Source of the DNA: Nitrososphaeria archaeon
Lineage (GTDB): Archaea; Thermoproteota; Nitrososphaeria; Geothermarchaeales; JDFR-13
Length of the DNA stretch: 64,000 nt
Assembly: GCA_027078545.1 (NCBI GenBank)
Contig: JALWXN010000004.1
Location: 268,737 to 332,736, forward strand
Reading direction: 5' to 3'
This document shows positions 57,150 through 59,477 of the stretch, one piece after another (the stretch's first letter is position 1; the number at the start of each line of letters is the position of its first letter). The position numbers and the translations under genes were made by a program. A model generated the notes under the pieces. It did no database searches, was not told the origin of the DNA, and saw only the letters and a program-made list of their open reading frames with translations.

Positions 57150-57245
57150 CCCTGGGTAGGGACTAATATATCCTATCCATATACCCCTTTTATCGGGTCC
57201 TCTCCTGGAGGGGCCGGCTACACATACTGGGCTAGGGTGCTAGAG

Positions 57246-59477
57246 ATGCCTGGTGAGAAGGTTATTAGGCAGCCTATAATAACTGTCCTAGGCCATGTCG
57301 ATAGCGGTAAGTGTGTGGGTGGGGATCACTATGTCGATCTAGAGAGGTATGTGACTGTTGAGGATCTCTACTATGGGGGTGGGTATGTAGAGTCTCTCGA
57401 CGTCTCTATCCCGGGCTTTGTGAGGAATAGGGTGGGTAGGGTTGTTAGGGAGGAGGTTGATAAATGGGTATACGTCTCCCTCGATTCTGACAGCTATGTA
57501 GAGTCCTCCTTTGAGCATAGGTTTCTAGTCCGTCTAGGGCCTGGACTGTATAGGTATACCCCTGCCCATAGGCTGAGGCCTGGCGACGAGGTTGTGGGTC
57601 GTCTGGGTGATCCCGGCCCCGACGGCCTCTCTACCGTTAGGGTTCGACGGGTTGTTAGGCACTATACCCCCCGTATCCTCTATGATCTGGAGAGCCCTGG
57701 GTATAGAAACTTCGTCGTGAATGGTGTCGTCGCCCATAACACGAGCCTCCTCGATAAGATTAGGGGGACAGCTGTACAGCTTAGGGAGGCCGGTGGGATA
57801 ACCCAGCATATTGGGGCCAGTATGTTCCCGCCTGAGACGCTGCGGGAGATATGTGGCCCCCTACTCGAGAAGTTCGGCTTCGAGATTATTGTCCCAGGTA
57901 TACTGGTTATCGACACGCCTGGCCACGAGGTCTTCTCAAACCTTAGGCGGAGGGGGGGCTCCGCCTCGGACATAGCGATCCTCGTAGTGGATATCACGAA
58001 GGGTTTCCAGCCCCAGACCCATGAGAGCCTACAGATACTTATGCAGAGGAGGGTCCCCTTCCTAGTCGCTGCTAATAAGGTTGACCTTATACATGGCTGG
58101 AGGCCCTCCGGAACCCTATCGATCATCGAGGCATTGAAGAGGCAGAGTAGTGAGACGCTTATCCATCTGGAGGAGAGGATAGGCTATATAATCTCCGCCC
58201 TCAACACCTACCGCTTCGATGCGGATCGCTTCGACCGTGTGAGGGACTTCAGGAGGACCGTTGCTATAGTACCTGTATCGGCCAAGACTGGGGAGGGTAT
58301 ACAGGAGCTGTTAACGATCCTCATCGGCCTAGTACAGAAGTTCCTGATCAATAGGCTTGAGGTCGATATTAATAAGCCGGGCTCCGGCACGATCCTGGAG
58401 GTCAGCTCTGAGCATGGACTGGGCAAGGTCGTGAAGGCCATACATATTGACGGTACCGTCAGGGTGGGTGATACATTCATAGCCGTCGGTAGGAACGGGG
58501 TTGTGGAGAGGCGTATAAGATCCATATTGATGCCCGCCCCCCTCGATGAGCTCAGGGATCCGAGGAAGCGGTTTAGGCAGGTTGAGACGAGCTATCCGGC
58601 TGCGGGTATAATCATCGTTGCCCCCGACCTGGACGAGGTGTATGCTGGTTCGCCCTTCTATAGTGTCCGGCCTGGTATGGACGCCTCGATCCCAGACCTT
58701 GCGAGGGAGTTGGAGGAGGAGGTAGCCAGTATAAAGATTGATACGGATAAGGTTGGCGTCGTGGCAAAGGCAGATACCCTGGGTACTTTGGAGGCCATGA
58801 TAGCCCAGATGAATAGGAAGGGGATCCCGATCAGGAAGGCCGATGTGGGGGATGTCTCGAAGAAGGATGTTATCGAGGCGGGTATAGTGAAGGAGAAGGA
58901 TGTTATCAGGGGTGCCGTACTAGCCTTCAACGTCGATGTCCTCCCCGATGCGGAGGAGCTTGCCAGGAGTAAGAAGATACCGATCTTCCGGGGAGAGATA
59001 CTCTACAGGCTCATCGACGACTACCTGGCATGGGTGGAGGACTATATCAGGAGGAAGAGGGAGCGCCTATTCCAGAGCCTCGTCAAGCCTGGTAAGATAC
59101 AGGTGCTCGAGGGGTATGTGTTCAGGAGGAGTAAGCCGGCCATAGTTGGTGTGCGTGTAGAGGCGGGTGAGATCAGGCCTAGGTATAGGCTTGTAAGGGG
59201 TGATGGAGAGGTTGTCGGGACTATACATCAGATCCAGGATCGTGGGAAGCCGATTGATAGGGCTACCCGTGGGATGGAGGTGGCGATAAGTATTAGGGAG
59301 GCCGAGGTGGGTGACGACTTTGAGGAGGGTGACTACCTCTATGTCTATGTACCCGAGGAGGATGCCAAGACGCTTATGAAGGAGTTCCTGGCTGATCTTC
59401 CAAGTGATTATAGGGAGACTCTGGAGGAGTTCCTAGAGATTATTAGGAGTAGAAACCCCCTCTTTGCACGTGGCTAG
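57246..59477 (+). CDS. infB: Translation initiation factor aIF5B (IF-2 homologue), intein-containing precursor
   Basis: GTPase promoting subunit joining. The P-loop GHVDSGK is broken after K22 by a 143-residue intein (57312-57740) and resumes TSLLDKIRGTAV. Then GGITQHIGA, DTPGHEVFSNLRRRG, NKVDLI, and domains II-IV ending in NPLFARG. The mature protein would be about 600 residues, the family length. ATG 57246 is preferred to GTG 57237. The 96-base gap from ndk has CTAATATATCC (57161-57171) as a promoter candidate. GTPase activity needs the intein removed because it splits the nucleotide-binding loop. Confidence 0.96.
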   Translation: MPGEKVIRQPIITVLGHVDSGKCVGGDHYVDLERYVTVEDLYYGGGYVESLDVSIPGFVRNRVGRVVREEVDKWVYVSLDSDSYVESSFEHRFLVRLGPGLYRYTPAHRLRPGDEVVGRLGDPGPDGLSTVRVRRVVRHYTPRILYDLESPGYRNFVVNGVVAHNTSLLDKIRGTAVQLREAGGITQHIGASMFPPETLREICGPLLEKFGFEIIVPGILVIDTPGHEVFSNLRRRGGSASDIAILVVDITKGFQPQTHESLQILMQRRVPFLVAANKVDLIHGWRPSGTLSIIEALKRQSSETLIHLEERIGYIISALNTYRFDADRFDRVRDFRRTVAIVPVSAKTGEGIQELLTILIGLVQKFLINRLEVDINKPGSGTILEVSSEHGLGKVVKAIHIDGTVRVGDTFIAVGRNGVVERRIRSILMPAPLDELRDPRKRFRQVETSYPAAGIIIVAPDLDEVYAGSPFYSVRPGMDASIPDLARELEEEVASIKIDTDKVGVVAKADTLGTLEAMIAQMNRKGIPIRKADVGDVSKKDVIEAGIVKEKDVIRGAVLAFNVDVLPDAEELARSKKIPIFRGEILYRLIDDYLAWVEDYIRRKRERLFQSLVKPGKIQVLEGYVFRRSKPAIVGVRVEAGEIRPRYRLVRGDGEVVGTIHQIQDRGKPIDRATRGMEVAISIREAEVGDDFEEGDYLYVYVPEEDAKTLMKEFLADLPSDYRETLEEFLEIIRSRNPLFARG
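57312..57740 (+). mobile_element. Mini-intein in the aIF5B P-loop
   Basis: 143-residue in-frame insertion between Lys and Thr of GHVDSGK/TSLLD. Block A begins at Cys1 (CVGGDHYVDLERYVTVEDLY). Block B has H69 in SSFEHRFLV. Block F is RILYDLESPGYRNFVVNG. Block G is VVAHN, with penultimate His142 and Asn143, and extein +1 Thr. All residues for class 1 self-splicing are present. There is no LAGLIDADG or other endonuclease motif, so it cannot home by itself. Confidence 0.95.

Follow-up and report, generated by a model that had tools for sequence, protein, structure and literature searches.

Inteins are self-removing protein inserts, and examples located in GTP-binding loops are already known. One protein that carries them is aIF5B, an essential archaeal translation factor and the archaeal homologue of IF-2, and the IF-2 P-loop inteins of the type represented by the NCBIfam model PRK14845 are, we presume, those of Thermococcales and Methanocaldococcus.

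Inteins of up to 200 aa are counted as mini-inteins in PMC8229266, which gives 166-172 aa for three mini-inteins of P. horikoshii, with the one in RadA being 172 aa long. This RadA mini-intein also sits in a P-loop (PMC5790916). The homing-cycle model, as presented in PMC8966425, predicts that the alleles of an insertion site form a series of sizes and stages of decay.

Results

The window analyzed here, a stretch of 64,000 nucleotides from the genome of a Nitrososphaeria archaeon, contains an aIF5B gene whose open reading frame matches the NCBIfam models PRK04004 (E 1.2e-226) and aIF-2 (E 4e-210) and is the single full aIF5B match in the source genome. The frame starts with GTG at 57237, with an ATG at 57246 as alternative start. 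Its parts and a neighboring gene are as follows:

57237-59477, plus strand: aIF5B open reading frame, insert included, 746 aa (open reading frame and family profiles)
57237-57311, plus strand: aIF5B N-extein, whose last residues GHVDSGK form the first half of the P-loop
57312-57740, plus strand: predicted mini-intein, 143 aa, CVGGDHY...VVNGVVAHN (sequence, intein profiles, same-site relatives)
57741-59477, plus strand: aIF5B C-extein, Thr+1 (57741-57743) and then SLLDKIRG, up to the stop codon
59904-61154, plus strand: aIF2-gamma, a paralogous GTPase with an empty P-loop (GHVDHGK/TTII)

The insert comprises residues 26-168 of the aIF5B frame and lies between the Lys and the Thr of the P-loop (GHVDSGK/T). 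Since 143 residues separate these two positions, the P-loop of the precursor cannot be normal. The C-terminal part of the insert scored 32.6 bits (E 8.5e-8) against the Pfam family Intein_splicing (PF14890), where the curated cut-off is 35.8, and the score against TIGR01443 (intein_Cterm) was 18.1 bits, above the cut-off of 15.6. Residues 25-143 match a solved structure, the RadA mini-intein of P. horikoshii (4e2u, E 1.5e-6), which suggests a Hint fold; a single-sequence AlphaFold2 model of the intein had a mean pLDDT of 33, too low to inform on the fold. With 143 aa and no LAGLIDADG or other endonuclease domain matched within them, the insert falls among the mini-inteins. Searches of the source genome (assembly 92% complete) with the intein itself and PF14890 found no further inteins.

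The residues with a presumed role in splicing were located in an alignment of 40 inteins:

57312-57314, plus strand: Cys1, block A nucleophile (Cys in 40 of 40 aligned inteins)
57507-57518, plus strand: S66-F67-E68-H69, block B, TxxH with Ser for Thr (His in 40 of 40 rows)
57684-57686, plus strand: Asp125, the block-F Asp (Asp in 40 of 40 aligned inteins)
57705-57707, plus strand: Arg132, in place of the block-F His (40-intein alignment)
57735-57740, plus strand: His142-Asn143, penultimate His and putative cyclizing Asn (invariant in 40 of 40 rows)

Like class 1 inteins, the insert begins with Cys1 and ends with His142-Asn143 followed by Thr+1, and its block B has the TxxH pattern with one conservative change, Ser66, while His69 is present. 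Ser occupies this position in four of the ten family aIF5B inteins (source genome, G002, G003, and G001) and in three of 14 aIF2-gamma inteins, with Thr in every remaining row. The block-F His, a common but not universal feature, is replaced by Arg132; this column reads R, K, N, N, and K in the source genome, G002, G003, G001, and G007, respectively, and His in the other five family inteins. Elsewhere, residues other than His are found there in the aIF5B intein of G030 (N), the aIF2-gamma intein of G032 (A), and three of five RadA/Rad50-like rows. According to PMC8229266, the block-F His of the PhoPol-II intein is thought to aid C-terminal cyclization. Its loss need not stop splicing, given that non-His residues also occur in other aligned inteins. 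The inteins of the source genome and its nearest relative G002 differ at 22 positions, none of them catalytic.

A first-pass annotation of this DNA had proposed an endonuclease-free intein of 143 residues at 57312-57740 in the P-loop of aIF5B. These boundaries are exact (Cys first, His-Asn last, directly before Thr), the P-loop location agrees with the GHVDSGK/T junction and the PRK04004 and aIF-2 matches, and the domain searches bear out the lack of an endonuclease. Its description of the intein as compact fits the lengths of the P. horikoshii mini-inteins, and the proposed identity with a known archaeal IF-2 P-loop site is backed by PRK14845, to whose positions 454-1048 residues 147-744 of the source aIF5B align unbroken across the C-terminal splice point. 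The annotation had also called all splicing residues intact, which holds for C1, H69, H142, N143, and Thr+1 but not for block B, with Ser66 for Thr, or block F, with Arg132 for His. Its further claim that splicing must be complete goes too far: enough factor must be spliced, and this does not imply completeness.

The intein is constrained, though more loosely than its host protein. In the comparison of the source genome with G002, the intein had a dN/dS of 0.13 by NG86 and 0.11 by YN00; the corresponding values of the aIF5B C-extein were 0.02 and 0.01, i.e., ca. 6 to 10 times lower than those of the intein; the intein values of 0.11-0.13 indicate purifying selection. An origin of the insert by chance is excluded because it is in frame in a 746-aa open reading frame, 85% identical in G002, and under a dN/dS of 0.11-0.13. 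Its codon usage lies within the native range, with four of 31 gene stretches scoring equally low or lower.

To place the intein among its relatives, we surveyed 140 genomes of the class, which corresponds to Nitrososphaeria in the NCBI lineage because the aIF5B of family f4 is 84-88% identical to that of named Nitrosopumilus (two nearest rows). The gene was matched in 137 of these genomes and carried an intein in 13, each confirmed by sequence. All ten genomes of the source family (f1) with a readable aIF5B have a mini-intein of 143-170 aa; they span five genera, and the identities of their inteins, 85% for G002, fall to 28%. The eleventh family genome, G009, gave no aIF5B match, and in the sister family of the same order (G011) the gene has no intein. 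Three of four genomes of family f5, in the same class, have aIF5B inteins of 337-513 aa: the 513-aa intein of G026 scored 20.0 bits against LAGLIDADG_3, below the cut-off of 22.5, and those of G032 (365 aa) and G030 (337 aa) gave no LAGLIDADG match. In the remaining 124 genomes the aIF5B frames are 545-645 aa long and were counted as empty by length; a subset was read in sequence, and all of these were empty. The first-pass annotation had suggested looking for relatives that lack the intein or carry an endonuclease form; the class indeed holds these 124 genes counted as empty, and the larger forms in f5 show only sub-threshold LAGLIDADG similarity (G026), but within family f1 no readable gene is empty. 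In G032, a second reading of the N-terminal aIF5B stretch with an in-frame TGA (G032:C94:33677-33775) adjoins an intact 960-aa frame and is probably a frame artifact.

In a sample of 200 genomes from the whole phylum, aIF5B was matched in 198, and the intein-bearing genomes among the matches listed were the source genome and three of family f25 in another class (G154, G182, and G254, with inteins of 159, 159, and 160 aa). A 734-aa aIF5B frame in G201 proved empty on reading. The aIF5B matches of G293, G228, G248 (f44), G193, G253 (f36), G153, G160 (f24), G224, G208, G238, and G218 contain in-frame TAG, TAA, or TGA codons, which may point to faulty assembly, pseudogenes, or recoding. Among the matches listed beyond the class, mostly from bacteria and distant archaea, 13 were archaeal loci; the aIF5B P-loop was empty in 12 of these, and in the thirteenth (L089) only an aIF2-gamma P-loop was found, also empty. 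No match in the small archaeal phylum around G309 (five genomes) began before residue 168. Unusually long aIF5B frames were seen in G309 (784 aa) and G319 (862 aa), the P-loop of G309 being uninterrupted (L082). When the alignment of the family inteins was run against viral contigs, 11 matches appeared, all of them weak (26-55% identity over parts).

Inteins in paralogous translation factors surfaced when the full aIF5B precursor, used as query, also matched other open reading frames. aIF2-gamma was matched in 134 of the 140 class genomes and has an intein in its P-loop, at the position equivalent to that in aIF5B, in 14 of them (loci L008-L011, L018, L025, L032-L037, L039, and L045); 12 of these inteins are 146-166 aa long, with 206 aa in G046 and 257 aa in G005. 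EF-2 was matched in 60 of 61 relatives, and five of the 60 have a P-loop intein of 526-613 aa (G005, G008, G014, G026, and G030; loci L038, L041, L042, L043, and L046). LAGLIDADG_3 scored above cut-off in all four EF-2 inteins scanned, with 56.1, 46.0, 43.5, and 23.5 bits in G005, G008, G026, and G030, respectively. The EF-2 intein of G005 (L043:3987-5750, minus strand) keeps both LAGLIDADG motifs with their acidic residues, and in that of G008 the second motif reads FDISG. Three genomes (G005, G008, and G030) have inteins in aIF5B, aIF2-gamma, and EF-2 alike; in the source genome, the P-loops of aIF2-gamma and EF-2 are both empty. At six further loci (L173, L174, L176, L177, L189, and L195) the P-loop sequence GRNGSGK or GPNGQGK is followed by an intein; judged by this motif, the host protein resembles a Rad50/SMC-type ATPase. 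A literature search, with most subscription papers outside its reach, found no paper on inteins of EF-2, aIF2-gamma, or aIF5B.

We built a tree of 40 rows comprising the aIF5B, aIF2-gamma, and EF-2 inteins together with P-loop inteins that we provisionally labeled RadA and Rad50-like from their flanking motifs. The ten f1 aIF5B inteins form one group in this tree (98/98), the f25 and f1 inteins are distinct starred groups, EF-2 inteins form one group (100/99), and aIF5B and EF-2 inteins come together at 88/95; the aIF2-gamma inteins form two starred groups, with no support for joining them (25/0). In a tree of 32 rows, without outgroup and f25 rows, the aIF2-gamma inteins were one group (100/99), as were those of EF-2 (100/96), which joined only the family aIF5B inteins (59/64). 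Inteins therefore follow their host gene rather than the genome in which they reside. This grouping by host gene led us to discard recent exchange between paralogs within one genome. If inteins did pass between aIF5B and EF-2, they did so long ago, and the 88/95 grouping may reflect an ancient jump between the two. Around the insertion site, paralogs from the same genome share 12-19 of 24 nucleotides upstream and 7-14 of 24 downstream, a partial likeness that neither proves nor excludes cross-recognition.

The intein data did not reject the host-gene (extein) topology (difference 3.1 log units, p-AU 0.164), which at 143-170 sites is weak support for, and not proof of, compatibility with the host tree. 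A single clade of aIF5B inteins within Thermoproteota was likewise not rejected (p-AU 0.437). The inteins at this site form a size series of 513 aa, 365 and 337 aa, 159-170 aa, and 143 aa, and their distribution fits an old invasion followed by endonuclease loss and vertical descent. Our comparison set consisted of the inteins of the surveyed Thermoproteota genomes; within it, transfer from Thermococcales is neither shown nor needed, while an ancient origin from Thermococcales or Methanocaldococcus inteins may be considered.

Discussion

With high confidence, we interpret the insert as a class-1-type mini-intein, the P-loop allele of archaeal IF-2 (aIF5B), that would excise itself and has been inherited vertically. 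Cys1 would attack the Lys-Cys junction in an N-S shift assisted by His69, Thr+1 would then take over the N-extein, and Asn143 would cyclize with the help of His142; excision would restore a GHVDSGKT loop able to bind GTP. An endonuclease-bearing intein probably invaded aIF5B ahead of the common ancestor of the family and then lost its endonuclease, and it would since have been inherited with aIF5B, being difficult to remove and having to splice. From the sequence comparisons we infer that the intein splices, by which steps it does so, and in what order invasion and decay took place; the unusual Ser66 and Arg132, the PF14890 score below cut-off, and the fast dN/dS of the intein speak against this interpretation.

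The two substitutions would be the starting point for arguing that the insert no longer splices and that the gene makes either a protein that tolerates the insertion or a copy without function. We give this almost no credence, as the insert lies within the P-loop of the one aIF5B identified in the genome, its catalytic residues do not vary among the 40 aligned inteins, and its dN/dS is far below 1. A recent acquisition by transfer into the lineage, e.g., from Thermococcales or another phylum, could invoke the IF-2 P-loop inteins that exist elsewhere (PRK14845) and the aIF5B mini-inteins of f25 in another class. It is nevertheless very improbable: all ten readable family genomes in five genera carry the intein at identities down to 28%, the host topology is not rejected, codon usage is native, and the inteins of f25 are set off from those of the family, each in a starred group of its own. 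The bearing on transfer across phyla that the first-pass annotation had seen in this intein is not supported, given its family-wide presence, the p-AU of 0.164, and the larger alleles in f5.

More room, though still little, is left for conditional splicing, by which the intein would act as a post-translational switch on initiation. This idea is modeled on a proposal for RadA P-loop mini-inteins, which lack an endonuclease and, according to PMC5790916, splice only at growth temperature in their native exteins. Family-wide retention and constraint of the aIF5B intein and the altered block-F residue in its own clade would suit such a switch, but the need to splice explains retention and constraint equally well, and the intein diverges fast where its host does not. 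It is similarly doubtful, though conceivable, that the core translational GTPases of the class are collectively splicing-dependent, that the aIF5B intein could be a temperature- or stress-gated switch holding new initiation and elongation factors inactive, and that the inteins of EF-2 and aIF5B may go back to a common ancestor, which passed from one paralog to the other via similar P-loop DNA.

The vertically inherited mini-intein would be a clean case of a completed homing cycle with invasion, endonuclease decay, and family-wide fixation, and as a compact natural mini-intein it could serve engineering. What matters more is the wider pattern of one class in which the same P-loop position is interrupted in three paralogous essential translation GTPases. 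Where all three are interrupted in the same cells, new translation factors would wait on protein splicing. The pattern makes it possible to test if inteins can move from the P-loop of one paralog to that of another, and if several P-loop inteins stacked in the translation machinery are neutral passengers or act as a switch.

Comparison with known inteins

The aIF5B intein is of a kind already known, but here every readable genome of the family has it, and some relatives have inteins at the equivalent site of two further translation factors. It shares its host protein with PRK14845 (NF011418; archaeal IF-2 with intein), and, judged at the C-terminal junction, its site appears to be that of the known IF-2 inteins; however, the model has 1049 positions, implying a large insert, whereas the source intein has 143 aa and no endonuclease. 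The best match among solved structures, the RadA mini-intein of P. horikoshii (4e2u and 2lqm), is likewise a mini-intein, but its host is a recombinase and the alignment shows its block-F His to be kept, in contrast to Arg132 here. Within the class, the aIF2-gamma mini-inteins share the position of the aIF5B intein, are mostly 146-166 aa long, and lack an endonuclease, yet form a separate lineage in trees. The EF-2 inteins occupy the same position in another paralogous translational GTPase and have Hint domains that group with those of aIF5B, but they are 526-613 aa long and the four that were scanned contain LAGLIDADG_3, unlike the endonuclease-free 143-aa intein of aIF5B.
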